Assembly: GCA_022606425.2 (NCBI GenBank)
Contig: JAHDVF020001467.1
Location: forward strand, 62,001 to 126,000
DNA: 64,000 bases
Source of the DNA: Lepidostoma basale
Taxonomy: Eukaryota > Arthropoda > Insecta > Trichoptera > Lepidostomatidae
Direction of reading: 5' to 3'
Positions 16,327 through 44,462 of the stretch are shown one piece after another. Position 1 is the stretch's first letter; every line of letters begins with the position of its first letter. A program made the translations under genes and the position numbers. The notes beneath the pieces were generated by a model. It saw only the letters and a list, made by a program, of their open reading frames with translations. It was not told where the DNA came from and ran no database searches.

Positions 16327-16500
16327 AAATTTGTATTTAAACCACTTTATTTTCTACAACATCCATCCGGTTTCGCTTTCGCCGGAGCTTCTTCAGGATT
16401 ACAAAGACACTGACTTCAGTGTCTTTTAACCTTTACAAAGCTCGGCGGGAGCGATGCCGGGTTGTTGGTGGAAAGAATAAAGTGGTTTAAATACAAATTT
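16327..16500. repeat. PAL-B palindromic repeat
   Basis: AAATTTGTATTTAAACCACT at the left is mirrored by AGTGGTTTAAATACAAATTT at the right, with matching inner arms and GACACTGACTTCAGTGTC at the centre. The left arm carries, on the minus strand, a hammerhead-like core (16,359-16,401). Confidence 0.85.
16359..16401 (-). ncRNA. Hammerhead-ribozyme-like motif, family PAL-B
   Basis: On the minus strand: CTGAAGA (16,390-16,396), one extra A, hairpin GCTCCGGCGAAAGC, GAAA, then ACCGGAT. This fits the core order CUGANGA / helix II / GAAA / short helix III / UH. The helix III box has one change from the palindrome ACCGGT, and helix I pairing is poor, so this copy is probably inactive. Confidence 0.45.
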
Positions 16501-17104
16501 TCAACTGTTAAATCATATTTTAAAATGTCACATTCCATTAAATGGTTCATACGAAATTGAATGATTTATTTTTCCTTACCCCAAGTAAAAACATGTTTTT
16601 ATAGCTTCTATAACAAAGTGCATAAAGAGAGAGGTATATCTGTTTTCTTTGGTTAACTCATTCCTAGTCCTGCAAAGGAAATATCGATTAAGGACGATCG
16701 CTTCCGACCACTTGTTAGAACTTAATGAAATAGTTAACTAAGAAAAGCACATCAGCAAATATCCCCCCGACTCACGAAGCAATCATTTACAAACTAACTT
16801 GTACCAAGATTTCCGCCGGATGGGGAGGGGTTGTTTGCTCTCCGTGGTATATTGTATCAATTACAGGCGATGCCGAAAACGCCTTTCAGAATATTCAAAT
16901 ATTGTCTCCCGCCATCGTACTTCATGCGTTTTGACAGTCCTCTCAATCCTCCCGAACCTCCCTAACCTCCAGATCCTTCCTTTCTTCAGTCACAGGGCTG
17001 GATTAAGAATATTTTAAATTATGTGTTCATTGTTAATAAATCAGCATTCAATATGAAGTTATTACTCTCAGATAGAAAAAATGGAAAAAAATGGTAAAAT
17101 ATAA
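16501..17104. other. No gene; GC-richer island at 16,780-17,000
   Basis: The 72-codon open frame at 16,799 shows no family. The segment is single-copy here and less AT-rich than its surroundings, so it may be regulatory. Confidence 0.35.
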
Positions 17105-17292
17105 ATATCTTACTAACCATCACCCTTTCTCCCGATGGTGGAGGGATAAAAAATGGGCCGCCACACATTATTATTTTCCCACGTACTTCCCTCTCTTCCT
17201 CAACATTCATACATCTTATCATGAACGCATGTCGATTTTTCGGACCTCTCGCATTACTGACGTTTAATATTTGATGGATTTGATCTTCCTTT
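17105..17292 (-). mobile_element. RTE-A LINE fragment
   Basis: Reverse-strand RTE-A 3' end: CTAACCATCACCC, then the blocks for ACMTRCMN and HDQIN. Truncated at the LINE segment coding for the tryptophan-rich KTWHDQ. Confidence 0.7.
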
Positions 17293-17332
17293 TACTAAAC
17301 ACCAGGATTTTAGTTCATGCTCGTTGTCTGCA

Positions 17333-17675
17333 TCACGCCATTTCCGCGAAATAGGCAGCAAGAATAAATCGCCATACTATTATTTACTAACATACTTCTC
17401 TCCATTCCTTGACATTCATACATCGTGTCATGACACGATGTATGAATTTCAAGCACACACGTCGATTTTTCCGAATCCTCGCGTGGCATACATTTAATAT
17501 AAATAATTATACTAAATCACGGTCACGCGAGGAGTCGGAGAAATCGACGTGCGTGCATGACAAGACGTATGAATGTAGAGGAAGCGAGAGAAGTGTATCA
17601 GGACAGAACAGTGTGGCGTTCTATTCTTTCTGCCTACCCCTCCAGGGAGACTACGTGATGGTTAGTTAGTTAGTT
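17333..17675. mobile_element. Head-to-head inverted pair of RTE-A 3' ends
   Basis: Positions 17,333-17,510 are RTE-A on the reverse strand with the 3' end outermost (GCATCACGCCATTTCC). Positions 17,515-17,675 are RTE-A on the forward strand with its own 3' end (GACTACGTGATGGTTAGTTA). Unlike twin priming, both halves keep a 3' terminus, so the unit is a fold-back of about 160-bp arms. Within it, 17,416-17,449 is a perfect 34-bp palindrome centred on GTGTCATGACAC. Confidence 0.75.
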
Positions 17676-17729
17676 ACTAAATATAATTGTTTATAAACTT
17701 ACAGCGTCAACATTGTGGACGAAATTTTT

Positions 17730-17905
17730 AAGAATTAAAACACTGTTCGTTCCACATTTGAGTTTATTTCTCTCGACATATAGGGCTTTACACCTCATAT
17801 CGTTCAGTTTATATCGTTCTTCCGATGTTGAAGGTGTAAAACCTGAGAAAAATGAACCCTAAAGTGGTAAAAAGAGTGTTTTGTTTATTTAAAAATTCGT
17901 AATGA
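17730..17905. repeat. PAL-D palindromic repeat, degraded
   Basis: AAAACACTGTTCGTTCCACA on the left mirrors the right side (AAAGTGGTAAAAAGAGTGTTTT). The centre holds TTCCGATGTTGAAGGTGTAA, related to the PAL-D core, but the GAAAC strand is gone (GAGAAAAA). Confidence 0.55.
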
Positions 17906-17909
17906 ATAT

Positions 17910-18426
17910 AATTTATCTAACTTTTATTAATAATCTGCCACAAAATTACATGTCTGATAACCCTATTAAAATATATTAAAACAATTATTATATAAGATTA
18001 GTAGGGTTTTAAACGTTCTGGATAAGCGATAATACACATTTTACTGTCATTCACACGCGGCCTGAAACACAATGTAATCTCCAAATCTGAACCTTTTACA
18101 TGTTAAATTCATTATGAAAAAAGGAAGTTAACAGTAGTCCTCGTTAGGCCCTTTGTAGGGCAGGGCCGTGGAGTGCACTCCCTTCCCCTGGGCAGGTCAG
18201 CGGGTTCGTGAGACCCTTCTCACGTCATGTCACGCCGGGGATCCCGCGCCACTGGCACGTCAACACACATCCCATCATCATAAGTCAATATTGGGAGACA
18301 AAAACGAAGCACTTCATGAAGAGCGGTTTGGTCAAATATTTCTGAATTTTTTTTAGCCATCCTCAGTGACACACGCTCGTAAACTCTACCCCCCTTATTT
18401 CGGGAAAATAATATCTCAAATAGTTC
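17910..18426. other. No gene; GC-rich patch at 18,140-18,280
   Basis: The patch (GGGCAGGGCCGTGGAGTGCA and onward) is unusual in base composition for the region and may be the edge of an unrecognised element. The 62-codon frame across it shows no family. Confidence 0.35.
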
Positions 18427-18714
18427 AATATTTTTTTATTATTATTTATATTTAAAATAAAATAGAAATAGAAACACTGCACTCTGTTTTTCACCACTAT
18501 GCGGATATTTTAATTGTCGACTAGTTTCGCTTGTACCCAAGCTTCCTCGGGGCTTCGTAATAACTGGTTCGTAAAATCCAGTTATAACGAAGCCCTGAGG
18601 AAGCTTGGGTACAAGCGAAACTAGTTGGCAATTAAAAAAACCGCAAGGTGGTGAAAAATAAAGTGCAATGTTTTTATTTCTATTTTATTTTAAATATAAA
18701 TAATAATAAAAAAT
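18427..18714. repeat. PAL-A palindromic repeat, 288 bp
   Basis: Near-perfect palindrome. The outer arms (TTATTATTATTTATATTTAA) are mirrored at 18,690-18,714, the inner arms (ACTAGTTTCGCTTG) at 18,608-18,625, and the centre is CCAGTTA-type. A hammerhead-like motif sits in the right arm (plus) and a mutated mirror of it in the left arm (minus). Confidence 0.9.
18589..18631 (+). ncRNA. Hammerhead-ribozyme-like motif, family PAL-A
   Basis: CTGAGGA (18,595-18,601) fits the CUGANGA strand. One extra A (18,602) follows, then helix II GCTTG/CAAGC with loop GGTA (18,603-18,616), GAAA (18,617-18,620), and the self-complementary ACTAGT (18,620-18,625) ending at U16.1 with T as position 17. Helix I pairs GCC (18,592-18,594) with GGC (18,627-18,629). 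All invariant core bases are present; the extra base before helix II is the departure. In such minimal forms helix III would form between two copies. Activity is inferred, not shown. Confidence 0.6.
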
Positions 18715-18829
18715 TTAATGTCTTACCACAAAGCGAATGCTTCATACGAAAATTTAGTTCAATGGAAATCACCACTGCAAATAGAAATATATCCTGATGT
18801 ATATATTATATGTTAACACGGTGGAATTT

Positions 18830-19000
18830 CATAATGTAATTTTTTTTATTAACTAATACATTATTTATTTTTTGCTATTAAATAAACTCTAAAGTTTACA
18901 TAATTTTCCCGATGAAGATAGGGTAAAGCCTTCGAAACATGTCGAAAATATTTAATTCAAAAGTGAAAAAACAGTGTTTTAATTCATGAAAAAAAATCAT
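18830..19000 (+). repeat. PAL-D repeat with hammerhead-like motif
   Basis: The unit runs from GGTGGAATTTCATAATG to AAAAACAGTGTTTTAATTCAT. Its 3' end is shared with copies at 21,960 and 44,355. Confidence 0.65.
18903..18949 (+). ncRNA. Hammerhead-ribozyme-like motif, family PAL-D
   Basis: Helix I is a perfect 6-bp pairing, ATTTTC (18,903-18,908) with GAAAAT (18,944-18,949). First core strand CCGATGA (18,909-18,915) has C where U is expected. Helix II is GATAGG/CCTTC with one bulge. GAAA is at 18,934-18,937, palindrome ACATGT at 18,937-18,942, and C17 at 18,943. The U-to-C change is shared by all PAL-D copies seen. Confidence 0.5.
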
Positions 19001-19034
19001 TTGAAATATATCCACTGAAGTAAAGACGTAAACA

Positions 19035-19160
19035 AAACTAGAAACAGAAAAAAAACCGAGGGAAACGTGACACTATCAAATCAATCAAATATTAGATGTT
19101 GGTCACTAGAGGAGTTGGAGAAATCGACGTGCGTGCATGACACGCTATATAAATGTAAAA
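19035..19160 (+). mobile_element. RTE-A LINE internal fragment
   Basis: Covers RGKRDTIKSIKY-like to RRACMTRYINV-like coding segments and lacks the 3' end. Frame lost. Confidence 0.6.
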
Positions 19161-19559
19161 AAGAAGATTTTTCCTAAGATTTCCTGAGCTGTAAGACAAA
19201 TGTCGGAACATCATTTAATACGACTAGACTGGTTAGCTTAATAATAGTAAATTATAATAAATAAACCGGTAGAATTAATCAGTCTATTAACAGGAAATTG
19301 CATTAAACATTATAATAATGAACGAATGTATTTTTTTTTTCATTAAAATAATTTTAGAATTTTTATTTTAAAACCAAAAATATCAACAAAATAAAATAAT
19401 TAATGAAAGAAAGACATACGAGTACGTTTAATAATTAAAATTATTTTTTAATTAAATGCATCACAATTATTTATACATATACAAACATTATAGATGATAA
19501 AGGTGTAAGGTTTTTCCACAGGGATGAAACTACGAGTACACCCATAAAGATTTTATTAT
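19161..19559. other. No gene; very AT-rich spacer
   Basis: I see nothing beyond AT-rich sequence. Confidence 0.4.
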
Positions 19560-19690
19560 AACTAACTAACTAACAACCGTTACGCCGTATCTTCAAAGGG
19601 ATAGGCAGAAATAACTTTTTTTCCTGACATACTTCTCTCGATTTCTCAACATTCAAATATCGTGGCATGTACATGCATCGATTTTATTAT
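19560..19690 (-). mobile_element. RTE-A LINE 3'-end fragment
   Basis: AACTAACTAACTAAC tail complement, stop region GTTACGCCG, then the ACMTRCMN-coding block; truncated after about 130 bases. Confidence 0.7.
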
Positions 19691-20015
19691 CCATGAAGAA
19701 ATAGAAAAGTCAATCAAGCATCTAGCGATGATCATATTAATCGAATATCATAAATCACAAAAAAACTATTTCTCAGATTTTTTAAAACATTTTCAGTGTT
19801 ATAAATACAATATATTTAATCATAAAATGTATATCCGGTTATATATTTTAACGTGGTAAAATAAAGTAAATTATATATGAGTAAATGTATTATTTTAAGT
19901 TATTATTACACTAAAAACGTTCACTCGAAATGTGTGCCATGGTTTATGGTTGGATCATAATGTATAAGCGATGGAATAATAATGGCCTTTCGATTTTTAA
20001 ATAAGCAACAACAAC

Positions 20016-20085
20016 GTTAACTAACCATCATGCCGTTCATCAGCTTCCTTCACATTTATACAGCGAGTCAAGAACGCAAGTCTTC
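20016..20085 (-). mobile_element. RTE-A LINE 3'-end remnant
   Basis: TAACTAACCATCATGCCG followed by a shortened match to the MTRCM block. The Ser-Ala-Tyr-Pro segment is deleted. Confidence 0.55.
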
Positions 20086-20264
20086 TTTAAATAGGCATGT
20101 ATAAGATATATGTAAATATATACGAGAACATATAGACATATCAATACTGAAATCAAAACCAACATCATTAATCTCCATATAACTGACTTGATATTTAGTT
20201 CAACTATGTTGCTCAGGCTACTATTAAAGTACCTACATTTAAAAAAATTAACAATATGAATGAA

Positions 20265-20490
20265 AACATTAGGACCTAACGTGGGTAGAATCCTTAGAGA
20301 TAGGAAACCTAACGAAAAAATTCGCAGATCTTGCAAAATTGGTGACATAGTGGGATGTAGTAAGCAGAGAAGACAATTTTTTAGGGACCACATGGAAAGA
20401 AGGAAAGCTGGACGTCTTCATCACAGTAAGAAATTTGATAACCTGTATAAATAGATCGCAATATTACAATAAAGGGAAGAAGAAGAAAGA
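20265..20490 (+). mobile_element. RTE-C LINE fragment
   Basis: Codes for GRILRDRKPNEKIRRSC, IGDIVGCSKQRRQFFRDHMER and ends in a GAAGAAGAAGAAAG tail. This matches the pattern of the LINEs at 29,596 and 52,470 (RIRN..IR..C.VEDIV.W.RRRRR.W..HV.RM). Confidence 0.6.
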
Positions 20491-21461
20491 TATTTGAAAA
20501 CATACGTCTTTGTATTTCATGAAAAGTTAACAATTGTAATGGAATTCGCTTGAACACTCATAAATATTTCAGTAGTGTATTAGAAAACCCAGGTTCCTTA
20601 ATTAAATAAAACAATATAACACAGAAAACACATTTGGTTACAATGTCGCCGGATTCACGTTTCCTATCCCATAGCGCATATAAAAAGTTTTCTAAACAAC
20701 TTCAGCAACAAAAAAGAAGTTAAATTCACGGGAAAATGTTAAAGATAGACGGATGAGGAGTGATGGCTCTCCCTATAGAACTCTACTGTGGAACTGTGAA
20801 ATGATACAGTAGCAACTATGTATGAGTATAAAAGGACAAGACAGATGTCACAAAATAAAGATAAAAATACAAGTAAAACAGTACAACGCATAAAAAATAC
20901 GAATAACACAATTTAACATGTTTATTCTTGCTTCTACATTTTTATGCGGTGCCTTAGACTTTTATGAAAATTGTTTCGGTAGGGAATAAGCCTTAGGGTA
21001 TATCATTCTGCTACACAAAGGGTAAGTCTAGGTGTGGAAAACTTTTGACGCGCGTTTCGTTTCTGTTTAAAGTTTTTGTTCCTCTTAGAGAAATTATGAG
21101 ATAAACGCACTTCGTAAGTTTCTGTGATTTTCGAGAATGATAGATATTAACGCAATATATAATACGCATTTACATATTATAAATAATAATAGCTAAATTA
21201 AATATGGGTATCTCTCATTTGATAGAATTCATTTCAAACGATGAATATTGAACATCAGTATTATTACCATCTACCCAATTATGACATTGGTTTCATCGAT
21301 ACTATTTTAAAAAGTATAGTGTACTACTCGTATTTAAATATATTCTAAAGATAATGCAGGGTAGGAATAAAATACTCGTATCTAAAACAATTCAGATGAA
21401 TTGATTAATGGATGTAGTGCTTTGGTTAATCTAATTGAAAAATATAACTACATCATTTATA
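20491..21461. other. No gene; spacer
   Basis: No gene or recognised repeat. Short fragments near 20,760-20,830 resemble LINE 3' ends but are too decayed to call. Confidence 0.35.
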
Positions 21462-21621
21462 CGAATGAAAACGTCAGTTTTCTAGAAGTTTTATTATATT
21501 TTATGGGAATTACATGTTTCGCCCTTCTAAAGCATTATCAAATGTCTGACATTTTAAGGGCAAAACATGTCATTCCCATAAAATATAATAAAACTTCTAG
21601 ACAACTGGCGTGTTCATTCGT
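21462..21621. repeat. PAL-E palindromic repeat, most complete copy
   Basis: Arms of about 63 bases (ACGAATGAAAACGTCAG ... CATGTTTCGCCCTT on the left; mirrored AAGGGCAAAACATG ... TGTTCATTCGT on the right) at roughly 90% identity. The border TTTGGAGTTTTACATCATTG follows, as in other copies. The related minus-strand core elsewhere reads TTGATGATGCCCTAG with AAGGC and GAAACATGTC, a decayed hammerhead-like order. Confidence 0.8.
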
Positions 21622-21709: not shown

Positions 21710-21898
21710 CATTTTAAACTGTTACTGAAAAAAACTTTGTTTTTTGTATCACACATCAACCAATGTTGAAATCATCAGGTGTTACAATATATTATTGTTA
21801 CACCTGATGATGTCAACATTGGTTGATGAAACAGCTGTCGCGTAAAATAAAATACAATTGTGATACAAAAAACAAAGTTTATTTATTAACAGTTTAAA
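21710..21898. repeat. PAL-C palindromic repeat
   Basis: Left arm (AAACTGTTACTGAAAAAAAC, CATCAACCAATGTTGA, CATCAGGTGTTACAATA) mirrors the right arm about 21,790. The left arm lacks about 30 bases that the right arm keeps. A hammerhead-like motif occupies the right arm. Confidence 0.85.
21798..21845 (+). ncRNA. Hammerhead-ribozyme-like motif, family PAL-C
   Basis: CTGATGA (21,804-21,810) is a perfect first strand. One extra T follows, then helix II GTCAAC/GTTGAT with loop ATTG (21,812-21,827), GAAA (21,828-21,831), palindrome ACAGCTGT (21,831-21,838) and C17 (21,839). Helix I pairs TTACAC (21,798-21,803) with GCGTAA (21,840-21,845) at five of six positions. All core bases are intact apart from the extra base. 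Confidence 0.6.
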
Positions 21899-21959: not shown

Positions 21960-22085
21960 TTTTATTAATTAATTAATTAGATTATATCGTTTTCCCGATT
22001 ATGAAGGTTTAAACCTTCGAAACGTGTTGAGAAAAATAAACTTAAAAGTGGAAAAAAACAGTGTTTTAATTCATAAAAAAAATCC
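21960..22085 (+). repeat. PAL-D repeat with hammerhead-like motif
   Basis: Core at 21,989-22,035: GTTTTC, CCGATTA, extra T, helix II GAAGG/CCTTC with loop TTTAAA, GAAA (22,019-22,022), ACGTGT, T, GAGAAAA. Helix I pairs TTTTC with GAGAA using one G-U. Two core changes are present. The 3' part (AACAGTGTTTTAATTCATAA) matches the other PAL-D copies. Confidence 0.55.
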
Positions 22086-26703: not shown

Positions 26704-28107
26704 GACAAAATTTGATTTTATTTCTTTAAATCAAATGGATTAAAAATTCGTTAAGACTTAATTATGTAATTAGTTATTAAGTAGCATTAAATAAAACCCT
26801 GAACGACATTTCCCCTGACGGATTTTTCTATAATTTCAAAGTTTGATGAGTTAAAAGTTCCGACATGTAATCATTTAATTTTGGTAATTATGAAAACTTT
26901 TCTAATTGAAAATTTATATCTTAATTTTGAACTTGGTGTCAAGTAGATGAACAGATGATGGGTGGCCTTGCCTCACTCTCGGGGACTTAATTTTCTTTCA
27001 GTAGACGATCAATGAAACCCAACTTATAACATTTCTCACTTTTAATAGGTGCCATTATTGTAAAACGTTATACATAAATCTGACTAATAAATAAAATATA
27101 TTTTATTAGTGTTCGAGTTTTTAATTATATTGACCTTTCTTTATCGAAATGAAAGATGGCACAAAGAAGATGCCTCCACGTGTGATGTTACTACAACTAT
27201 AACACACGGCACCCCTGGAAACATAACAAATTTACCAAACCTTCCACCACAAAGAAAAAGAGCGATATGGTATTTTTAGGATCATCTCTACAAAACTAGC
27301 TTACCATTGACACGATGAAGAAGAAGATGACTCTTGCGATAGAAGAATAAAAATACAACATGTGAGAGAGAATGCAAATGTCTCTCGATGCATGTTCGCA
27401 AAAAATCATTTAAAATACATGGAAAGAATGAATGAAGAAAGTATCAATGAAATAATCTCGTAACATCAAAAGAAATTAAAATAAAAGTTATTATATATTT
27501 GTCTTTGATCGAAAGTTTAGCTAATTATTTTTGAACTATGACGTAAAACTCTAATTTCAATAATTAAAACGAATTGAAATGACTATTTTATATAAGTTTC
27601 TTTTAGATATTTTATGGGAAAGACATGTTTCGACTTGCTAAGGCATGATCAAATCGCACATCCTCTGAAAAACTGTGACAACACAAAAAAAGCAGATCTG
27701 AGAAAAACACATTTTAATATTTGTTTTACCTTACATAAACTACTATGTTGTAATGATAATGAATACTAAGCGTATATTGTTATTATTGTATGTGAAATTC
27801 ATCAATCTATTCGTGGATTATAAAACATATAAGATGACAGTACATTTTTATTGAAAACAAAAAATTTCTGTGTTACAACAGTTTTTCAGAGGTTGTGCGA
27901 AATGTTTTTGAAAAATGTGAACGCCTTAGCAAGGCGAAACATATTTTATCATTCATTAGATACAATATGTATAACAAAACTTCTAGTAATCAAACTTTTT
28001 CATTTGTATGAATCAAATGTTTTAACTTTAAGAGCAAAAGCGATATTACGTAAGTCGAACCGCCTATAGATATAAATATAATATTATGAATATGCTCGAA
28101 AAGAATG
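26704..28107. other. No gene; spacer with PAL-E pieces
   Basis: PAL-E fragments lie at 27,540-27,665 (TTTTATGGGAAAGACATG, TTTCGACTTGCTAAGGCATG) and 27,900-27,985 (CGCCTTAGCAAGGCGAAACA), separated by unrelated sequence. A region at 27,110-27,350 ending GAAGAAGAAGATG may be a decayed LINE tail. No gene. Confidence 0.45.
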
Positions 28108-31579: not shown

Positions 31580-32178
31580 ATTGAAAGAAGAAAGAGAAAG
31601 AAGAATGGAGCTTTAAAAGTAGTTATTGGAAACAAGAATTTATCAATGAAAGCGAAAATGGCCGTTCACAATGGAGTTCTGGTTCCAACCTTAATGTATG
31701 GAAGCGAAGCGTGGAACTGGCAGAAGAAAGATGAGAGCAGAATAAATGCGGTAGAGATGAGGTCCCTAAGACGTATGTGTGGTAGAACGATGTACGACAG
31801 AATCTCAAATGCTGATGTTAGGAAAAAATGTAGAGCGAAAGAAGGTATTATGAACAAAATTATAAAAGGTTCGCTGCGTTGGTTCGGACATATGGAGCGC
31901 CTGGGTGAAGAAATAATGGTTGAAAAAGTATAAGTTAACGATGTAAATGGAGTAAGGATTCGAGGTAGACCGAGGAAAACATGGCATGACCAAATTAATC
32001 AAATATTAAAAGTTGGTCATGTCAGAAGCCGGAAGAATCGACGTGCGTGTATGACTCGATGTATGAATGTGGAGGAAGCTAGAGAGGTGTGCCAGGATAG
32101 AGTAGTGTGGCGGTCCATTCTCTCTGCCTACCCCTGCGGGGAAACGGCGTGATGGTTTTGTTTGTTGTTTGTTGTTTG
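31580..32178 (+). mobile_element. RTE-A LINE, subfamily 2, nearly open
   Basis: From GALKVVIGNKNLSMKAKMAV through MYGSEAWNWQKKDESRINAV, RTMYDRISNADVRKKCRAKE, SLRWFGHMERLGEE, one stop at 31,931, then VNDVNGVRIRGRPRKTWHDQ, VGHVRSRKNRRACMTRCM, VCQDRVVWRSILSAYPCGET and TGA. The tail is (GTTT/GTTTG) repeats, not GTTA. Only one stop interrupts it, so this is a young copy. Confidence 0.9.
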
Positions 32179-33063
32179 TATATTTTAATATTGATTTTTT
32201 GTGCCAAATCGAAATTTCTTTGACAGAATAATCACAAAAGCAATGATTTTATGATATGTTATTTTATCGATTATTTACCAAATACATGGTTGAAATTACA
32301 TCAGTAATCGCTAAACCATTTTTCTGACATTTAATGGTAACTATTATATATTATAAAAAAGTAATAATTATGGGGTAAAATTAAATAAAAGTATTAATAT
32401 AAAAACTTATATGTATGAGAGAACATTGTTAAGGTATTGATCCATGAGTGTTGAAGATTTAATTTAGTTTGAAGGATTTTTCAGATAATAAAGACTTTGA
32501 CCATCAAAAACTGATTAATTGAATCAAACGAATAGAAATTCATATTTATTGATATTTTTAACAATGATATTTTACGTAACACTAACTTTAATAATATTGT
32601 AAACTTCCGATTTTAGAAGTTTTATTATATTTTGTGGGAGAACACATAAAAATTATCATAATAAAACGAGTAATATGTAAATAAGCTTCTAAAAAATTAA
32701 CGTTTCCATCCATATTAAAAATTTATTCATATTTTAAAATGTGTTGTTTAACCATGCACCACACTATAACAGTTAACTGTAAAAACACATAACATTTCCA
32801 TTTATTGCTTCACTTTGACTCATCATCGCTATGATATCAGTATTTATTGTTTTAAATTTAATAATTATTTTAATGTAAAAACATTCATTAACATTCTTAT
32901 CATAAGAACGATGCCTTATTTCAACCTTAAAAAAAAATTATTACGATTTCTCACAATGCCATAGATTTATCTAGCCCAAAGTACGTTAACCAAGAATGTG
33001 GTATACTCAATGTCATATAATTATAGTTTTATTATATGTTTAATATAAAATAAATAAGTTTTC
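32179..33063. other. No gene; AT-rich with PAL-E remnant
   Basis: PAL-E remnant at about 32,600-32,760 (TTTAGAAGTTTTATTATATT, TAAAAAATTAACGTTTCCAT). The remainder is featureless. Confidence 0.45.
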
Positions 33064-33209
33064 TTTGTATTAAACCACGGTATGGTTATTATAATTGATG
33101 CCAACTAGTTTCGCTTGGACCCAAGTTTCATCAGGGCATTATGTTGGGTCCAAGTGAAACTAGATGGCATCAATTATCATAACCATAACGTGGTTAAATT
33201 CAAAGTTCA
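33064..33209. repeat. PAL-A palindromic repeat, short form
   Basis: Left arm TTTGTATTAAACCACGGTAT ... GATGCCAACTAG is mirrored by CTAGATGGCATC ... ACGTGGTTAAATTCAAAG. The left arm carries a well-formed hammerhead-like motif on the minus strand. Confidence 0.9.
33097..33140 (-). ncRNA. Hammerhead-ribozyme-like motif, family PAL-A (best copy)
   Basis: Minus strand: helix I strand ATGCC (33,135-33,139), perfect core CTGATGA (33,128-33,134), one extra A, helix II built on CTTG/CAAG with loop GGTC, GAAA (33,109-33,112), self-complementary ACTAGT (33,104-33,109), T at position 17 (33,103), and helix I partner GGCAT (33,098-33,102). Helix I is five perfect pairs. Every invariant base of the hammerhead core is present; the single extra base before helix II is the only departure. 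Cleavage would fall after position 17. Confidence 0.65.
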
Positions 33210-33397
33210 TTTTTTTATTCTTATTTTTTTTTTAATTTAGAGTTTTAGTTCAGTCAATTTGAAAGAGAAAACAATGTAGTATTATATATTATAATTTTAA
33301 AGTTAAAGTAAAATAAAGTGTAAATGTCAGAAATATATTAAAAGACTTTTAAGTCTTTTAATATATTTTTTAATATATTATATTTTTTTAATATATA

Positions 33398-33825
33398 TTG
33401 ATATACCTTATGTATGGAAGCGAAGCATGGAACCGGCAGAAGAAAGATGAGAGCAGAATAAATGCGATAGAGATGAGGACCCTAAGACGTATGTGTGGTA
33501 GAACGATATACGACAGAATCTCAAATGCTGATATTAGGAAGGAATGTAGAGCGAAAGAAGGTATTATGAACAAAATTATGAAAGGTTCGCTGCGTTGGTT
33601 CGGACATATGGAGCGCATGGGTGAAGAAATAATGGTTAAAAAAGTATACGCTAACGATGTAAATGGAGTAAGGGATCGAGGTAGACCGAAGAAAACATGG
33701 CATGACCAAATTAATCAAATATTAAAGGTTGGTCATGTCGGAAGCCGGAAGAATCGACATGCGTGTATGACTAGATGTATGAATGTGGAGGAAGCTAGAT
33801 AGAGTTGTTTGGCGGTCCATTCGAC
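33398..33825 (+). mobile_element. RTE-A LINE, subfamily 2, 3' end deleted
   Basis: One frame from LMYGSEAWNRQKKDESRINA through SLRWFGHMERMGEEIMVKKV, GRPKKTWHDQINQILKV, CMTRCMNVEEAR, then a stop made by an internal deletion that removes the EVCQDRVVW start. It ends at WRSI. The GTT tail is missing. The short duplication AAAAGACTTTTAAGTCTTTT lies just upstream. Confidence 0.85.
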
Positions 33826-34984
33826 TTTTAAAAGTAATATATTAAATAATATTTTTCTACTGCAACAATGACAGTTTCAAAGATTCTTCATCGAATAATC
33901 ATTTAATGAAAGTGACATATATAGCTTAACAAACTGAAACATATCATTGCCATTAGATTAAATATGGAGTTTTTCAGCATTGTTGAATCTAACCCAAAAA
34001 ATCTAAACGTAACCTATTATAATTCTAACTAGGCTTAATATTAACAAAATTAACTATAAATTAAATGTATCTGCAAGCAATCTGGGTCAATACACACATG
34101 TTTGTTTTAATTTATCCCTCTGTGCAAATATTACATCAATCGGCAAAATAGTTCACATGATTCCGAATACATTAGCCAATAAATTCAATAAAGGAAACAG
34201 TTATACAATTTACCTATCGCAATCATTTGGGGTAATTCACCTGCAGAGTAGGGAGTGGGGGAGAAGGGTGAAGGGAAAAGGGAGGAGGGAGTAGAACAGA
34301 AGGGGATGGTCCGGTAATTGAGATGTCAGCGGCAGTTGCCGGGAAACTGGCTCATCACAAATACCAAAATTCACTACAAAGAGACTTGTTTTAAAATCCG
34401 CAACATGTTTGACAGCCGCTCACGGACCTGAGATTCGAAATATCAATGCAGTCAACAAATCTTGAACAATGCGAAGCGCGAAAACAAATTATTTCTGCTC
34501 CCTATGAGCTACAAACCATCGATTTTATGTCATCCATTTTTCAACACCAAAATAACTCTATGCGCTGTTATCGTTGAAACAAGCAATTGAAATATTTGTA
34601 TATGTTCCCTATGTTGTGAATTCACATTTGAAATAATTTTCGAAAACTTTTTTTACGAAACTATATTTCATTATTTAGCACCTACGTGTTTTATTCTTTG
34701 ATATAAAATCTAAACATTTACTATTTAGGAAAGGAATGGAAACACTGCTTAATTGGAGTTTTATTATACCTTATGAGAGTGACGTGTTCCGCCTTGCTAG
34801 GGCATCATCAAATGTTTAACTCGTTTTTTAATTAAAAATTATACAGTACTCTAGCATGGCGAAAAGTGTTACTCTATACTCAACTCTCAAATATCAAATA
34901 TTAAATTTATAGTGATACGTTTTAGTTCAAGAAACAAAAAAATGGTCCATTGTTTTGGCCAAAACACTATGATACTTTAACATT
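33826..34984. other. No gene; two PAL-E copies, purine-rich tract and island
   Basis: PAL-E remnant at 33,890-33,990. A purine-rich tract (GAG/GGGA) spans 34,240-34,310. A single-copy island lies at 34,200-34,600. A better PAL-E copy at 34,755-34,950 has on the minus strand TTGATGATGCCCTAGCAAGG then CGGAACACGTC, the hammerhead-like order with mutated bases. Confidence 0.5.
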
Positions 34985-35292
34985 ATAAACTTTTAAATTA
35001 AAAAACTTTGTTTTATGCATCACAATTGTATTTTTACTTTTCGCGAGCGCTGTTTCGTCAACCTAACACGTATGTTGATATCATCAGGTGTTACAATAAT
35101 ATATCAAATGTCAAATTTTCGTGATTTTTTTAACCTTTACACACATAAAGGTTCGAAAAATCACGAAAATTGGACATTTGATATATTATTTTAACACCTG
35201 ATGATGTCAACATAGGTTGACGAAATAGCTGTGGCGAAAAATAAAAATACAATTGTGACACATAAAACAAAGTTTTTTAATTTAAAAGTTTA
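34985..35292. repeat. PAL-C palindromic repeat, 308 bp
   Basis: ATAAACTTTTAAATTAAAAA at the left end is mirrored by the right end. Inner arms (ATCAGGTGTTACAATAATAT; ATATTATTTTAACACCTGAT) and the centre (TCGTGATTTTTTTAACCTTT; AAAGGTTCGAAAAATCACGA) are also mirrored. The right-arm motif at 35,192-35,240 reads CTGATGA, T, GTCAAC/GTTGAC with loop ATAG, GAAA, TAGCTGT then G. The G at position 17 would block cleavage. The left arm carries the same order on the minus strand. Confidence 0.9.
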
Positions 35293-35690
35293 TAAAAAAA
35301 TAAATATTTTATTTTTGCATTATCATAAACAATATAAGATGTTTACACCGCGGAAGGATGAGAATTATCTGAAACATGTTTATGCTCAACAATTAAATAA
35401 AGTATTCTGAAAAAACATGGTTACTTATTATTATTTTTTTAAGTAAAGGTACTGGATACTTTTGAGAGGAGGGTTTAGCGTAGAAACCTGGTACCTGTAA
35501 ATAACGGTGAAAGCTTTAGAAAACGTCTGTCGTCTGTTAACTGTTAACTATTACTTTATATTTGTGATAGGATGTAATTGGCCTTACTTTTATTTAAGTG
35601 TTATTTTTTTCAAATATGTTTTTTTCTGTTATAGCTGTTATAACTTTAAATAAATAAATAAATACCGTACAACTTTAACAAAGCTCCTAG
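35293..35690. other. No gene; PAL-D-like remnant
   Basis: Positions 35,330-35,420 (CACCGCGGAAGGATGAGAAT, TATCTGAAACATGTT) keep a decayed PAL-D order. The rest is unrecognised. Confidence 0.4.
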
Positions 35691-36630: not shown

Positions 36631-36735
36631 GACCTTTGTGGCCGAGTGGTAAGTGCATTGACTGCCACCCCGAAGGTTCCGGATTCGATTCCCGGCGAGG
36701 GCAGTGTGATTGTCACACTGTCTTTAATCAGGAGT
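36631..36735 (+). mobile_element. SINE-1 subfamily b, head only
   Basis: tRNA-like head with A box TGGCCGAGTGG and B box GATTCGATTCC, then GTGTGATTGTCACACTG. This subfamily differs by AAGTGCATTGACTGCCACCC in place of GAGCTCTGACTTCCATACC. It stops where an RTE-B fragment begins. Confidence 0.8.
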
Positions 36736-38140: not shown

Positions 38141-38389
38141 TTAAAATATGCTAATTTATGTAAAAAGTATGTTAACTTGGGAAGGGTAGAATTCTACCTA
38201 AGGAAATATACAATAGAAATTTACTGTTTTTGGCGAAACCTTTTCTAATTCATCATTTTATATTTGTTTCGCCCTCAATCAATTCATACACCCCAAAAAA
38301 CTTCGATAAATCCTATAATTATCATTTTTTAATTCATTCAATATTTTTGAGGTTTTAAGAAATATATAAAATATCCAAAAAAAGCCTGA

Positions 38390-38882
38390 ATGGCAGTGCA
38401 CAATGGTGTTCTTCTACCGACCCTTATGTATGTTATTGTAAAGTAGAATAAATGCAGTAGAAATGAGATCTCTTAGACGAATGTGTGCATACTCTGTGTA
38501 TGATATAGTGTCGAATGAAAATATAAAAAGTGAATGCGGTGCCAATGATGGTGTTATGAACAAAATAATGAAAGGATCATCAAGATGGTTTGGACAAATG
38601 GAAATAATGAATGAAGAAAGAATGGTAAAATAATTATATGTTAACGATGTAAATGGAACCAGAAATAGAGGTAGACCGAGGAAAACGTGGCACGATCAAA
38701 TAAATCAAATATTGAATGTCGGCCATGTGAGGAATCAGGGAAATCGACGCGCGTGAATGACACGATATATGAATGTTGAGGATGCGAGAGAAATATGTCA
38801 GGAAAGAAAAGCGTGGCAGTCCATTATTTCTGCCTGCCCCATCGGCGAGACCGCGTGATGGTTAGTTAGTTAGTTATTTAGT
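38390..38882 (+). mobile_element. RTE-A LINE, 3' portion
   Basis: Follows the usual order: AVHNGVLLPTLMYV, INAVEMRSLRRMCAYS, IMKGSSRWFGQMEIMNEERM, a stop, NGTRNRGRPRKTWHDQINQ, ARVNDTIYECRG-like frame break, SAYPFGET-like end and (GTTA)n. Several stops. A deletion removes the EAWNWQKK segment. Confidence 0.85.
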
Positions 38883-39225: not shown

Positions 39226-39480
39226 GACGATTGGTAAGTGCATTGATTTCCACCCCGAAGGTTCCGGTTTCGATTCCCGGCGAAGGCAGTGTGATTGTCA
39301 CACTGTCTTTGATCTGGTGTGGAATTTACGTGGCAATAAAGTGGCGATAGATTACCTACATATCACATGTCACGAGAATCACTATGATAGCTATAATAAT
39401 ACCCTTTACATCGATTTGGCTCAAGCTGTCATGATATAAAGAGCGATTGAACAAAATTATAATAATAATAATAATAATTT
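39226..39480 (+). mobile_element. SINE-1 subfamily b, AAT-tailed
   Basis: Head (AAGTGCATTGATTTCCACCC, B box GTTTCGATTCC), GTGTGATTGTCACACTGTC, body, then an end unlike subfamily a: TTTACATCGATTTGGCTCA, ATGATATAAAGAGCGATTGA and an (AAT)n tail. Confidence 0.85.
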
Positions 39481-39987: not shown

Positions 39988-40470
39988 TAATACAGTACAC
40001 CCCGCTAATCCGGCACGATCGGTACTTCGACGACGTCGGATAACCGGAAGTGCCGGATTACCGAGCGCCATTTAAAAACTGGTGGGAACATAGCACGAGA
40101 GACGGATAGAACCATCAGGGCAGCTGACTGATGATTACATTTTTAATCGTATAATATCTATCTGCATTAAAATCGATAAGAAAAATACACAACATTTTTC
40201 GCTAAGAAACCAAAGAAACTTTAAACAAAGCATAAGACTAAGATTTTATACAATTGGTTTTTTAAATGTATACAAATACTTGTAGACAAATACTGGATTT
40301 TTACCATCATTTTTAAGGACTAATTGTATCTCAATAGAAACGAAGATGTAAATTTTTTTGGAAACAGAATACGGTAGTCGAGGCGTTAACAGGACTTATG
40401 ACATGTCATTGGTTGGGTTAAGCGATCACTTTATGTTAACAACATTCCCCATTCCACCCTTCTTACGACA
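39988..40470. mobile_element. Possible pogo/Tigger-like DNA transposon relic
   Basis: TACAGTACACCCCGCTAATC resembles the terminal sequence of pogo-type elements (CAGT...CGCTTATCCGG) at a TA target. A subterminal inverted copy (GTGCCGGATTACCGAGCG) lies at 40,050-40,067. The stretch GTCGAGGCGTTAACAGGACT to GTTAAGCGATCACTTTATG (40,378-40,438) recurs inverted at 52,211-52,272. No transposase frame is seen. Confidence 0.4.
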
Positions 40471-40619
40471 CCACGTCTGACAAATTTTTGAAACTTGTAT
40501 ATTATATGCTACTATTTTTTTAATAACTTCACTGTTTGCAGGTCAATCTACATGATATATTTAATTTACTTTAAAAACTAATACATAATGGTTTTTTTAT
40601 TTAATCATTAACAACAGAT

Positions 40620-40815
40620 GACCTTCGTGGTAAGTGCATTGACTGCCACCCCGAAGGTTCCGGGTTCGATTCCCGGCGAGGGCAGTGTGATTGTCACATT
40701 ATCTTTGGCGATAGATTAGCTACCTATTACATGTCACGAGAATCACTATGATAGCTATAATACCCTTTACATCGATTTGGCTCATGCTGTCATGATGTAA
40801 AGAGCGATTCAACAA

Positions 40816-40852
<37 letters not shown>

Positions 40853-40855
40853 GCC
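40620..40855 (+). mobile_element. SINE-1 subfamily b, AAT-tailed
   Basis: Lacks the A-box part (GACCTTCGTGGTAAGTGCAT) but has B box GGTTCGATTCC, GTGTGATTGTCACATTATC, the body, the end CATGATGTAAAGAGCGATTC, and an (AAT)n array of about 30 bases. Confidence 0.85.
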
Positions 40856-41679
40856 AGGCGATGCTAAATTATTGAAAGTGCCGAACTGTTCCATCCCGAT
40901 TCCCAGACAATTTAATTAATTAAATAAAATATACGTTATTCCGGCTAATTTTCCTAAAAACAAACAAAATTCAATGAGACATGACAATATAATTATTATA
41001 TAACAATTTCATTATTCTTTTACTTTTTGAATCCAGTTTTCATTAATTACATAATTCATAAATAGCAGATTCCAAAAATATGTAAGTACCTACAGGTCTA
41101 GAAAATAATATAAACCTACCTACAATTCAAGAAAATAATAAAACTACGATATAACATTCTCGATATATATTAAACTTAAAGATTTCGACTACTTTTGTAC
41201 TTAAACCTATCGAAGTACCTACTTCAATATCTTCTCGTTTATTGCTCCTAGAATATAGATTTGATTCAATTTAGTAATCGAAATGTACCGAACATTTTCG
41301 ACATTTAAACTATAACTTCCACCAAATTATGTATATTTCTGAGAAGGTTACCAATATTGTAGTTCGTAATGGAGCGGGTGCTGGCAGCATTACTCTCTAA
41401 TTGAATCTGTGGGCTAAACATTATCAAGTCCGGACCTGGGAGTCCCGAGCTATCAGGAACATCGGCGCATTGTCAAGGCACGTAACGTCATTAGGGCGTC
41501 GGTCGAGGGCGTCCAATTAATTTGGGTATAAAACCATAAAGATTGCATCAGTGGCGCCCCCCACACTTCCACCATAACATAAGGAATACGAAATCAATAT
41601 CTAACTAAAAATAAAACCTTATCACAATATTTTCCATATGAGACCCCCGCTTTGTGTTTAGATATATTAAATTAGTAAA
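40856..41679. other. No gene; AT-rich spacer and single-copy island 41,340-41,580
   Basis: The island (GCGGGTGCTGGCAGCATTAC; GGGCGTCGGTCGAGGGCGTC) is non-repeated and GC-rich for the region. No coding family; possibly regulatory. Confidence 0.4.
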
Positions 41680-41840
41680 TATATAAAATGAAACTAAATC
41701 TTTGTATTTCTTCTATATTCGCCTTCACTTTGTGTTGTGGTTTCATATTTGAATAAATATACTTATACTTTGTATTACAACACTTTTTATTTTCACTGAA
41801 CACAGACATGTTTCGGTTACAAGTAACCTTTATCATTGTA
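41680..41840 (-). repeat. PAL-F repeat with hammerhead-like motif
   Basis: CTTTGTGTTGTGGTTTCATA and TTTGTATTACAACACTTTTT are shared with a copy in MOCOS intron 1 (55,318-55,450). The end (41,802-41,839) carries a hammerhead-like order on the minus strand. Confidence 0.65.
41802..41839 (-). ncRNA. Hammerhead-ribozyme-like motif, family PAL-F
   Basis: Minus strand: helix I ACA (41,837-41,839) with TGT (41,802-41,804); first strand ATGATAA (41,830-41,836; two changes from CTGATGA); extra A; helix II GGTTAC/GTAACC, six perfect pairs; GAAA (41,811-41,814); palindrome ACATGT (41,806-41,811); C17 (41,805). The core is probably inactivated, but the structure is well kept. Confidence 0.5.
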
Positions 41841-41969
41841 AACAATTTTAACAATCAAATAAAACAGAGCGGTCAGTCGTATACTAAATAGAGATCGAGT
41901 TTTGTATAAATGAGAGTTTAATTAGGATTGATGAGAATATGAGAAAAATTAAAAAAACAAATATTTCTA

Positions 41970-42205
41970 ATGAAGCTGAATACTCTCCAATATTTGGAGT
42001 ATTTTCTTTTCGAACATTGTATCATCCATAATGAAATATGTCAATCTCCGTAGCGATCATGTCCGGGAATTTGGTTGGCTCTCTCCGTCGACATCACTAC
42101 AAGCAAGTTTGTTCTTCTTGTTTGAAGATAAAAGTTTATAGAATGTGCTGATGCTGTCGAAAATAAAATGATCGATCCTCTCCAAGATGGCAAAGTTCTA
42201 AAGGA
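41970..42205 (-). mobile_element. Jockey-like LINE 3'-end fragment
   Basis: Reverse strand resembles the end region of the 37,284 copy (CTCCGTAGCGATCATGTCCG; ATGTGCTGATGCTGTCGA). Lacks the pentamer tail. Frames broken. Confidence 0.7.
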
Positions 42206-42279
42206 AACTAACATTAACAAGTTTAAAAAATCAAATAATAATACACTGTTATTTGTATTAACAATCATTTATTTGGTAA

Positions 42280-42319
42280 CACCAACCGGTTTCGCTCCCG
42301 CCGGAGCTTAGTCAGGGTG
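42280..42319 (-). ncRNA. Hammerhead-ribozyme-like motif, family PAL-B (left arm)
   Basis: Minus strand: helix I CACC (42,316-42,319) with GGTG (42,280-42,283), four perfect pairs; first strand CTGACTA (42,309-42,315; T in place of the invariant G8); extra A; helix II GCTCC/GGAGC with loop GGCG; GAAA (42,290-42,293); palindrome ACCGGT (42,285-42,290); T17 (42,284). Confidence 0.55.
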
Positions 42320-42518
42320 AGAGAGTTGTAAAGTTTTGCTTTCGTGGCCGTACTCGCCATCTCTAAACTTTCGTATGGAGCACTTAATTTGTGGTGTGAC
42401 ATTATTAAATAAAATAATAATATACTTTTAGTAATTTTAATTAACACCACTTTATTCGATAGATGGCCAATTTAAAGATGGCAAATACGGCCACGAAAGC
42501 AAAACTCTACAACTCTCT

Positions 42519-42558
42519 CACGCTGACGAAGCTCCGGCGGAAGCAAAACCGATTGGTG
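42519..42558 (+). ncRNA. Hammerhead-ribozyme-like motif, family PAL-B (right arm)
   Basis: Perfect first strand CTGACGA (42,523-42,529), extra A, helix II GCTCC/GAAGC with one mismatch, then AAAA (for GAAA), CCGATT and GGTG. It complements the left-arm copy: each arm keeps the core base the other has lost. Confidence 0.45.
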
Positions 42559-42568
42559 TTACCAAAGG

Positions 42569-43304
42569 TACAAAGGATCGCGTAACTGTGTATAAAGGTA
42601 CAAAGGAAAAATCATACTTTTAGCTTCAGGTTTTAAGTTATTCGCAAAGATTATTTCAAAAGTTATTTATCTTTAAACTTACATATTTAAATAAGGTTTT
42701 TTTTTTAAACAGTTTTATTTTGATATAATATAACAAAGGAACCTGTAACGCATTTCTTTGCCTACTACAGAAAACGCTCATTAATCACTGTTTGATATAA
42801 TAAAGACATATTTTAACGTGATTACCTTTTAATGTACATAAATAAGGGTGAATATTATATTTATTACAACCAACATTCGCAATTGTGGTATTTTGATTAT
42901 AATGAGAATCTTATGAGATACTTGACGACACCGCTATTTCATAATAATATATCATTTCAATATTTCTGTTATACAACAGACCATAGCGAAATTCACATTG
43001 TATTATATATTAATATGAATGATGATAACTTCGGTTGTAAATTAAGGGAGTTGCTTAATAGCCTTTCGTCCAATTGGTACCTACAATTCTAGTGGTAGGT
43101 ACGTATATTTCAGTTTATAAGTAAAGGTACTGGCTGAGGTGAGTTATACCATTATCAGAAGAAATATTATAAACACAAGTTTTGTGTCAATGACCATTTG
43201 TTTTATCTTAAATATTATATGAACTGTCCCTTTACTAAATAGAGCTTTAGAGCAATAAAATACCCTCAACCCAAAACTTTAATTAAAAAATCTCTTCTCT
43301 GGTT
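42569..43304. other. No gene; AT-rich spacer
   Basis: The 86-codon frame at 42,832 has no recognised family and AT-driven composition; not called. Confidence 0.4.
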
Positions 43305-44228
43305 TCAATCCTGGGATTGGTTTGCAGCAATTTCCTCCATTATTCTCTTCCATTTTTCTCTGTCTTGTGCGGCTCTTTTGAGATCTGCATATGATGAGCA
43401 GCGTACGTCCACCAACAGGTCCTCCAGGTACTCTCGGCGTGGGCGTCCCCTAGAGTTTGTCCCCTCGATCATACCCTCCATTATGGCATGCAAGAGACCT
43501 TCTTGACGTATTACATGGCCGATCCATCTTGCACGCCTTTCGGACAAGGTCCTGAGCAGGTGCCTTCCTCCTTCGATTCCTTGAAGAACTTCCTCATTCG
43601 TGATGTGGTCTCTCCAGGAAATTCCAAAGAGTCTTCTATAGGACCACATCTCAAAAGCCTCTAGTCTCCGCTTATCCCTTTCGGATAGGCACCATGTCTC
43701 GCAGCCGTACATCAAGACACTCCATACATAGGTCTTGATGAGGAGTATTCTCAGTTTTAGGTCTATATTATTTGACTCTATTATTTTCGACCTTTTATTA
43801 AATGCAAGCCTAGCCTGATGTATACGGCTGTCGACCTCGCTCTTAGACCGACCGTCCCATGTTATTTTGCTCCCGAGGTAGACAAACTCCTTGGTGTTCT
43901 TTAGTGGAACTCCTGACATCACTACTCTCATCTGATGTTGCGTTCGGCCTACAGTCAGCAGCTTTGTTTTGCCCTTATTTATCTTCATGTTGTAGCTATC
44001 TTGAAGAATGTCTTGCAAAGTTTCTAAGGCCTCCTGCAGTTCCTCCTCACTTTCAGCAACCATAGCAATATCGTCAGCAAACCTTATCATGTCTATCTTT
44101 TGCCCGTGTATCCTTACACCTTCTCTGTGACTCATTCTCTCTCTCAAGTCGTCAATCGCATTCTGTATGTAAACGTTAAAAAGAGCAGGTGACAGCGAGC
44201 ATCCCTGTCTTACCCCTTGTCTTATACA
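43305..44228 (-). mobile_element. RTE-like LINE, open reverse-transcriptase fragment
   Basis: An uninterrupted reverse-strand frame of about 307 codons, 5'-truncated and open at 44,228. It starts RQGVRQGCSLSPALFNVYIQ (RT motif B), then has FADDIAMVAESEEELQ (motif C, catalytic FADD), MKINKGKTKLL, EFVYLGSKITWDG, SVLMYGCETWCLSE, FGISWRDHITNEEVLQ and RRARWIGHVIRQEG, and ends AQDREKWKRIMEE..ANQSQD, TGA at 43,305. Motif A, the endonuclease and the 5' end are missing, so it cannot work alone, but lack of stops suggests recent insertion. A decayed copy of its last codons lies at 44,490-44,530. Confidence 0.9.
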
Positions 44229-44354
44229 ATATTAAAAAATATCCATTCAAAATTTAACGCATTGATCTTTGTATTGCTATGTTCCTGGTACTCTGCCTAA
44301 GTTAACTAACATACGTTACATATGTTTCTGTGTTCTTACACTCATTTTGTAATA

Positions 44355-44462
44355 ATTGTGGTTAGTTTATATCGTTCTCCCGATGATGAAAGTGTAAGCC
44401 TTCGAAACATGTCTAGAAAAAAAACTCAGAAGTGGAAAAAACATTGTTTTAATTCATATAAA
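44355..44462 (+). repeat. PAL-D repeat with hammerhead-like motif
   Basis: 44,373-44,420: CCGATGA (44,380-44,386), extra T, helix GAAAG/CCTTC-like, GAAA (44,404-44,407), ACATGT, C, then TAGAAAA. The U4-to-C change is as in other PAL-D copies. It ends with ACATTGTTTTAATTCAT. Confidence 0.55.

Follow-up and report, generated by a model that had tools for sequence, protein, structure and literature searches.

Palindromic repeats of Lepidostoma basale as probable ends of Penelope-like elements with minimal hammerhead motifs

Introduction

What are the short palindromic repeats that occur in several families on one contig of the caddisfly Lepidostoma basale, and do they carry ribozymes? We analyzed a stretch of 64,000 nucleotides (assembly GCA_022606425.2, contig JAHDVF020001467.1, positions 62,001 to 126,000), hereafter the window, in which an original prediction made from the sequence alone had described six repeat families (PAL-A to PAL-F, here also A to F) that share the layout of a hammerhead ribozyme. 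The complete assembly (769 Mb in 1572 contigs; the window is C577:62001-126000) was searched as well. In our best explanation, to which we assign a probability of roughly 85%, the repeats are pseudo long terminal repeat (pLTR) ends of Penelope-like elements (PLEs) in which each arm carries an outward-facing minimal type I hammerhead, with cleavage that would be weak, aided by dimer formation or by protein, and probably dispensable for multiplication.

Motif occurrence in the window and in the genome

Both strands of the window were scanned with a descriptor that required the core C[CT]GAN[GT]A, four or more base pairs in helix II and GAAA. Nine rows were found. In eight of them (seven places, one being counted twice) helix II is preceded by exactly one additional base, where a Markov model predicts 0.15-0.21 rows per strand for each spacing; the ninth row (4748, spacing 0) resembles a chance match. 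A covariance model (R1), built from 14 aligned motifs (five from the window and nine from other places in the genome) and run without filters, gave 13 matches in the window at E ≤ 0.0011, spanning 16358-44419 (Table 1). The CYGANGA core is intact in nine of these 13 matches. Damage was observed in helix II, which is partly broken at 33097 (-), 44374 (+), 18903 (+) and 16358 (-), in the GAA segment at 42517 (+), which reads AAA, and in the self-complementary box, which is non-palindromic at 16358 (-), 21989 (+), 35192 (+) and 42517 (+); in the damaged copy at 35192 (+) the residue after the box is G. Family F (GCCTT/AAGGC) is more degenerate, one copy reaching only E 2.9 and two being absent from the R1 matches at E ≤ 5. 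The inverted arms of the window palindromes are 36-136 nucleotides (nt) long with 3-147 nt between them.

The hammerhead-like layout of the window repeats was thus confirmed by the descriptor scan and by R1, and all six helix II pairs named in the prediction are present. The helix I pairs are present too, although one of them (TTACAC/GCGTAA) includes an A-C mismatch, and the statement that helix II always pairs is true for each family but not for each copy, as helix II or the box is broken in some single copies. Core, hairpin and box had been placed correctly, but the one extra base before helix II had been overlooked.

The pattern CYGANGA-N(10-18)-GAAACNNGT, the final part being GAAACnnGT, has 40,239 matches in the genome versus 120 for the reversed pattern. 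Counts for listed rows refer below to the first 100 of the 40,239 places, which lie on contigs C1 and C2 only and were found with a pattern that itself fixes most of the core letters.

Pairing and covariation

Helices I and II are base-paired, and the pairing is backed by covariation. The mean number of helix II pairs (out of five) in the listed rows is 2.13, 4.02 and 2.39 at spacings of 0, 1 and 2 respectively. Among 85 distinct strings an average of 3.93 of five positions pair, compared with 2.73 when the arms are re-dealt (maximum 3.05 of 500). In the 14-row alignment 86.9% of the cells are paired versus 57.9% after shuffling, and the covariation score is 0.737 versus 0.197, a value reached by none of the 500 shuffles, with slid versions of the alignment scoring 0.06-0.16. 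For helix I, 42 distinct copies with flanks have 3.12 of four pairs compared with 1.89 when re-dealt (maximum 2.43 of 1000) and 1.17-2.10 when slid. These figures overstate the evidence somewhat because head-to-head arms and members of one family are not independent. The covariation that the original prediction had proposed to look for is therefore found in both helices.

Downstream of helix II, 89 of the 100 listed rows have a palindromic box (ACATGT in 65, ACCGGT in 18 and ACTAGT in six, the pattern fixing ACnnGT). Residue 17 is T in 22, C in 17, A in three and G in none of the 42 distinct copies. A shared downstream tail, GTG(G)..ACA(G/A)TGTTTTA, was recognized by eye in many families and a similar tail is found in the autonomous PLE described below. 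In a simple test, AATAAA was found at most 40 nt downstream of the motif in 17 of the 42 copies.

Core letters and altered cores

A core-blind scan was anchored on helix II, GAA and the palindromic box only, in DNA of which a part had been chosen by the motif. It returned 37 places (one site being counted twice) where the commonest letters are C-T-G-A-N-G-A-W, with counts of C24, T27, G29, A27, N, G21 and A32, and with position 7 almost evenly filled (T10, G9, C9, A9). The free position 7 is predicted by a hammerhead core and not by a plain hairpin. At the level of families, a conserved hammerhead core with a free N7 is therefore observed. The 204 kb that had not been chosen by the motif (the window and loci L002-L028) hold 14 distinct core-blind places, of which 12 are motif-like, helix II being preceded by A or T in every one of these.

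Seven window motifs were compared for copies in 331 kb of examined DNA, part of it chosen by the motif, and family F was found to have the most with 30 distinct copies, followed by E with 28 and D with 14. The core of family F reads TTGATAAT in 17 of its 30 copies, and most copies have U3-A8 in place of C3-G8 and the box ACATGT (examples are L035 2824 (+), L059 539 (+), L075 402 (-) and window 21541 (-) and 30916 (-)). Natural hammerheads are known in which U3-A8 stands in for C3-G8 as a compensated pair, and activity in vitro is reported for them in PMC3088659. Family F resembles those natural hammerheads in its compensated pair and differs from them in its weak helix I and its extra U10. It may therefore be compensated rather than dead, with the caveat that C to T and G to A are also the likeliest neutral changes.

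The extra base before helix II

In 90 of the listed rows the best helix II is obtained with one additional base, in six with none and in four with two. Where one additional base fits best, it is A in 63 and T in 27 of the 90 rows and never G or C. The Rfam type I model (RF00163, Hammerhead_1) agrees with the repeats in its core letters and in GAAAC, and the short stretch of helix III in its printed consensus is likewise a palindrome, but in the model helix II starts right after A9, whereas the window repeats insert one base. Since the Rfam model has no base at this position, similar motifs may go undetected in other genomes.

A closer counterpart is the (+) hammerhead of the chrysanthemum chlorotic mottle viroid (CChMVd), in which an additional A separates A9 from G10.1 at the cost of a moderate loss of rate (De la Pena & Flores 2001, as cited in PMC3705267). 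According to the same account, C or G at this position is very harmful, and U speeds cleavage three- to four-fold. The preference for A or U in the caddisfly repeats is similar and is what the CChMVd experiment predicts, although CChMVd is a viroid and not a retroelement. In the Anolis PLE, as described in PMC11167929, stem II marks the start of the open reading frame (ORF), and the cleavage site is found 26 nt past the start codon. A start codon formed by A9, U10 and G10.1, combined with a 5-bp helix II, a 4-base loop and a 6-base box, gives the same 26 nt, a span that is also found from A9 to residue 17 in 43 of the 100 listed rows. The published PLE hammerheads may thus share the extra base.

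The one Hammerhead_1 match reported among the scored candidates of the genome (L001 1501-1617, corresponding to C844:789780-789896 on the minus strand, 38.7 bits) lacks the extra base. Its loop II contains a long insertion, and its box is an 8-base palindrome.

Element ends and Penelope-like coding sequences

Twenty neighbouring pairs of listed copies lie less than 2 kb apart. In 12 of them both copies belong to one family, as assigned by eye on the basis of helix II, and every such pair is arranged head-to-head (-/+) with none in tandem; the eight mixed-family pairs show every orientation. Many of the listed copies have no partner within 2 kb.

The Pfam GIY-YIG domain has at least 62 matches in the genome (150 of 542 candidates scored). 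The first and third strongest, on contigs C102 and C729, were set aside as bacterial UvrC, and the second strongest lies on C223 (L003, without a PLE match). Both bacterial loci, L027 (C102:18001-27000, on a contig of 1.64 Mb, also with a FecR-domain ORF) and L028 (C729:131001-140000, on a contig of 251 kb), encode UvrC, and the assembly appears to include bacterial, perhaps symbiont, contigs. Among the 15 GIY-YIG loci L002-L016, six match a protein with RVT_1 and GIY-YIG domains (P0001) at 89-98% identity, six match other PLE proteins and three (L002, L003 and L004) match neither. P0001 has 1852 relatives at E ≤ 0.001 among 7995 scored; the named relatives listed are mostly from insects, the first being Phthorimaea operculella.

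Elements of the P0001 family are bounded by inverted arms (456 nt at 99% identity in L018, 1136 and 330 nt in L019). An outward-facing motif, CTGTCGA-T-GCCAG..CTGGC-GAA-ACCGGT-C with a 4-bp helix I, was found in 13 of the 28 loci L001-L028 (L007, L008, L009, L013, L014, L017-L023 and L025) in a total of 23 rows, and it occurs on both arms in ten of the 13. The family has near-identical inverted arms and, in some copies, long open frames, and it looks recently active.

Other motifs, with an intact core, follow PLE coding remnants of the same strand at a distance of 140-310 nt on the 3' side. A GGGAC/GTCCC motif occurs on both inverted arms of L065, 3' of PLE coding sequence, and a GGAGG/CCTCC motif lies 3' of PLE coding sequence in L015; weak links to PLE coding were found in L064 (E 4.2e-5) and, for a motif of the family C type, in L035 (E 1.3e-5). 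The prediction that the repeats are non-autonomous retroelement ends with minimal Penelope-type hammerheads is supported by these motifs, by the same layout in elements with reverse transcriptase (RT) and GIY-YIG domains and by covariation. Its observation that the window lacks Penelope coding frames was borne out, as no PLE coding was found there at E ≤ 1e-4 with 121 Penelope proteins.

Given their common architecture, the PLE-linked motifs, the head-to-head pairing and the shared tail, the six families, previously called unrelated, are most readily understood as variants of a single module, namely the portion of a PLE pLTR that bears the motif, frequently in the form of short head-to-head pairs.

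Such arrangements have a precedent in the Pen2a and Pen3a elements of the rotifer Adineta vaga, where an ORF with RT and GIY-YIG domains is accompanied by head-to-head inverted pLTRs, by junction palindromes ascribed to self-priming and by solo pLTRs (PMC3846280). The window copies differ in being short non-coding pairs or single ends, and copies of the motif number tens of thousands genome-wide. Minimal hammerheads without helix III are known in PLE pLTRs (PMC7761336), and the minimal type I hammerheads of PLEs (Cervera & De la Pena 2014; Lunse, Weinberg & Breaker 2017) are described in PMC7761336 and PMC6155905. They resemble the motifs found here in the core, in helices I and II, in the lack of an ordinary helix III, in their suitability for dimers, in their pLTR position and in their many dispersed copies; the difference lies in the A or U inserted between A9 and helix II in nearly all copies here. 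PLE minimal hammerheads, dimers, the extra A or U, U3-A8 and inverted pLTRs are already known singly. A literature search, the two primary papers on PLE hammerheads apart, found no description of these families and none that treats the extra base as a property of PLEs in general.

Proposed mechanism

The repeats would be solo or head-to-head inverted pLTR ends that are inserted and multiplied by PLE RT/GIY-YIG proteins encoded elsewhere in the genome. Each arm carries its outward-facing minimal type I hammerhead some tens of bases before the element end. Helix I, CYGANGA with nearly always one additional A or U, helix II and GAA are followed by a self-complementary box, six or eight bases long, which occupies the position of helix III, and by a residue 17 that is seldom if ever G. 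This layout, its abundance and covariation, the extra A or U, the outward orientation and the presence in full PLEs were observed, and the steps that follow are inferred. Lacking helix III, a single motif could form no more than helices I and II. Two transcripts, or two direct pLTRs of one transcript, could pair through the box, which would become helix III of a double hammerhead; a palindromic helix III between two RNAs is known from newt and viroid hammerheads (PMC6155905). The double hammerhead would cut after residue 17 and trim the PLE RNA near the pLTR-ORF junction. The palindromic head-to-head form would arise by self-priming or template switching during PLE insertion.

According to PMC11167929, the hammerhead of PLEs lies at the pLTR-ORF junction, cleavage by the Anolis motif requires the PLE protein, and mutating the ribozyme of the Anolis PLE leaves insertion unchanged. 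From this protein dependence and the neutral mutants, cleavage in Lepidostoma is expected to be weak, dependent on dimers or on a protein as in Anolis, and probably not needed for multiplication.

Minimum-energy folds contain helices I and II in families B, C and D, and not clearly in E or in the autonomous copy. Homodimers of five motifs gain -3.2 to -11.5 kcal/mol, with box-to-box pairing in B, D and E (three of five) and helix II kept only in D, so that a double hammerhead in general was not demonstrated by homodimer folding of these five motifs.

A more specific proposal, tentative and in our view rather doubtful, is that the motifs form a distinct subclass of PLE hammerheads, defined by an obligatory extra A or U after A9 and by a palindromic box that replaces helix III, active only as dimers and kept by selection across families as their helices turn over; some lineages would have compensated the core (U3-A8) and the autonomous lineage would have changed A6. 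With its tens of thousands of copies, its many families, its altered and compensated cores and an autonomous family with long open frames, this single genome provides a natural experiment on which features of a ribozyme are retained.

Evidence against the proposal and alternative explanations

Several observations weigh against a functional hammerhead in PLE ends. No single-strand fold is significantly stable (z -1.58 to +0.83). Rfam has no match in the window at gathering cut-offs, and its 28 matches at E ≤ 10 include no hammerhead; genome-wide, RF00163 gave one match among the 73 of 94,533 candidates that were scored. The covariance-model check suggested with the original prediction thus failed with the Rfam models and succeeded at 13 places with the purpose-built R1. 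The listed rows come from two contigs and a pattern with a largely fixed core. CYGANGAW is matched fully in only 15 of the 37 core-blind places, and the full core in five of the 14 places in DNA not chosen by the motif. The extra base is best in 69 of the 85 distinct strings when ties are given to spacing 0, and the base after the core in the 42 flanked copies is A in 21, T in 18, G in two and C in one, G being also the extra base in L019. The autonomous PLE family has A6 changed to U in all 23 rows, and a phage hammerhead with A6C cleaves slowly (PMC3088659). C4 is found in 25 of the 28 copies of family E, most copies of family F have U3-A8, and helix I of family F has about two base pairs in the window copies. 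No consistent target-site duplication was found at 11 palindromes, the longest words shared at their edges being 4-8 nt, mostly AT-rich and out of register; in rotifer PLEs, by contrast, PMC3846280 describes duplications of 8-10 bp in several copies. No link to PLE coding was found for families B, D, E and F in the DNA examined, and it is only by architecture that these four are tied to Penelope. Finally, PMC11167929 reports that in the Anolis PLE no RNA reads start or stop at the presumed cut site.

Some of these points would be expected if PLE ends keep the hairpin and the box for protein binding or initiation, self-cleavage having been lost or never having mattered in this genome, a possibility that we take seriously without favouring it. 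The A6 change in the autonomous family, the core changes in the abundant families E and F and the Anolis results all fit it. However, a hairpin that binds a protein need not obey catalytic rules, and such rules are visible here: the core-blind scan leaves position 7 free and shows a commonest letter at each other core position, residue 17 is G in none of 42 copies, the extra base is mostly one of the two letters tolerated in the viroid (PMC3705267), and the double change of family F preserves the 3-8 pair. A coincidental hairpin in the terminal inverted repeats of fold-back DNA transposons or miniature inverted-repeat transposable elements (MITEs) would suit the lengths of the inverted arms, the distances between them and their short AT-rich ends, but it is very unlikely: covariation acts at the RNA level, many listed copies lack a nearby partner, a motif with this layout also sits in the inverted arms of elements with RT and GIY-YIG domains, and the fold-back reading was rejected on the missing duplications at the 11 elements. 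The original prediction had also named retrozymes among the carriers of minimal hammerheads; in metazoans these are small, tandemly repeated units that contain type I hammerheads and are copied by way of circular RNA. The repeats are indeed non-coding, AT-rich, short, high-copy and hammerhead-bearing, and retrozymes co-occur with PLEs (PMC7229834), yet direct tandem repeats of about 150-400 bp are expected from them, and the head-to-head orientation of all same-family neighbours led us to reject this extremely improbable reading, which the single Hammerhead_1 match among the few genome candidates scored does not favour either. That short motifs arose by chance in an AT-rich, repeat-laden window could account for degenerate single copies and the silence of Rfam; it is refuted by the Markov control (about 0.2 per strand per spacing), the genome-wide counts and the covariation shuffles, and its probability is negligible.

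Annotated features of the window

The annotated elements and motifs are listed in Table 1.

Table 1. Palindromic elements and hammerhead-like motifs annotated in the window, with positions counted from its first nucleotide.
Feature	Position	Strand	Description
PAL-A element	16315..16512	.	inverted arms 70 nt, 80%
PAL-A left-arm motif, outward-facing	16358..16402	-	CTGAAGA-A-GCT..AGC, box ACCGGA (damaged palindrome); R1 20.5 bits, E 0.0011
PAL-B element	18432..18713	.	inverted arms 136 nt, 91%, centre 10 nt
PAL-B left motif	18513..18556	-	CCGAGGA-A-GCTTG/CAAGC-GAA-ACTAGT-C; R1 42.9 bits (training row)
PAL-B right motif	18589..18632	+	CTGAGGA-A-GCTTG/CAAGC-GAA-ACTAGT-T; R1 45.1 bits (training row)
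PAL-E motif	18903..18949	+	CCGATGA-A-..-GAA-ACATGT-C, helix I ATTTTC/GAAAAT, helix II poor; R1 36.5 bits
PAL-F inverted arms	21446-21526/21556-21636	.	86%
PAL-F motif	21510..21547	-	core TTGATAA (U3-A8)-T-GCTTT/AGGGC-GAA-ACATGT; not in R1 list at E ≤ 5
PAL-D element, copy 2	21713..21898	.	inverted arms
PAL-D motif	21798..21845	+	CTGATGA-T-GTCAAC/GTTGAT-GAA-ACAGCTGT-C; R1 34.2 bits (training row)
PAL-E motif	21989..22034	+	CCGATTA-T-GAAGGT/ACCTTC-GAA-ACGTGT, box non-palindromic; R1 34.1 bits
PAL-F motif	27622..27653	-	core TTGATCA; pattern with 1 mismatch; R1 E 2.9
PAL-B2 element	33042..33227	.	inverted arms 84-86%
PAL-B2 motif	33097..33140	-	CTGATGA-A-ACTTG/CAAGC-GAA-ACTAGT-T, first helix II pair A-C, helix I ATGCC/GGCAT; R1 34.8 bits
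PAL-F motif	34781..34812	-	core TTGATGA; pattern with 3 mismatches; not in R1 list at E ≤ 5
PAL-D element, copy 1	34983..35295	.	inverted arms 92%
PAL-D motif	35192..35239	+	CTGATGA-T-GTCAAC/GTTGAC-GAA-, box damaged; R1 23.0 bits
Single motif	35342..35386	+	CCGCGGA-A-GGATGA/TTATCT-GAA-ACATGT-T, core altered at A6; R1 28.1 bits
Single motif	41799..41842	-	core ATGATAA-A, GGTTA/TAACC, ACATGT-C; R1 31.4 bits; no second copy in 331 kb examined
PAL-C element	42272..42566	.	inverted arms 96 nt, 91%, 103 nt between
PAL-C left motif	42278..42321	-	CTGACTA-A-GCTCC/GGAGC-GAA-ACCGGT-T, helix I CACC/GGTG; R1 41.0 bits (training row)
PAL-C right motif	42517..42560	+	CTGACGA-A-GCT..AGC, AAA for GAA, box damaged; R1 23.7 bits
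PAL-E motif	44374..44419	+	CCGATGA-T-..-GAA-ACATGT-C, tail GTGGAAAAAACATTGTTTTAATTC; R1 40.8 bits (training row)

A short near-perfect palindrome at 45256-45310 is not of the motif type and has several sub-threshold matches to miRNA families. Such matches (Rfam, E ≤ 10), several of which sit on inverted arms, were not accepted as miRNAs. Four tRNA-like stretches on the plus strand (153-224, 15407-15479, 36632-36703 and 40621-40684) fall just under the Rfam tRNA cut-off and are probably heads of short interspersed nuclear elements (SINEs); none joined to the motif was noticed in the window, where no dedicated test for SINE ends was made. Fragments resembling the C-terminal part of the reverse transcriptase of long interspersed nuclear elements (LINEs) were recognized by eye at 31660-32150, 33400-33810, 38380-38860 and 43300-44230, and some of them are followed by GTTA-type repeats.

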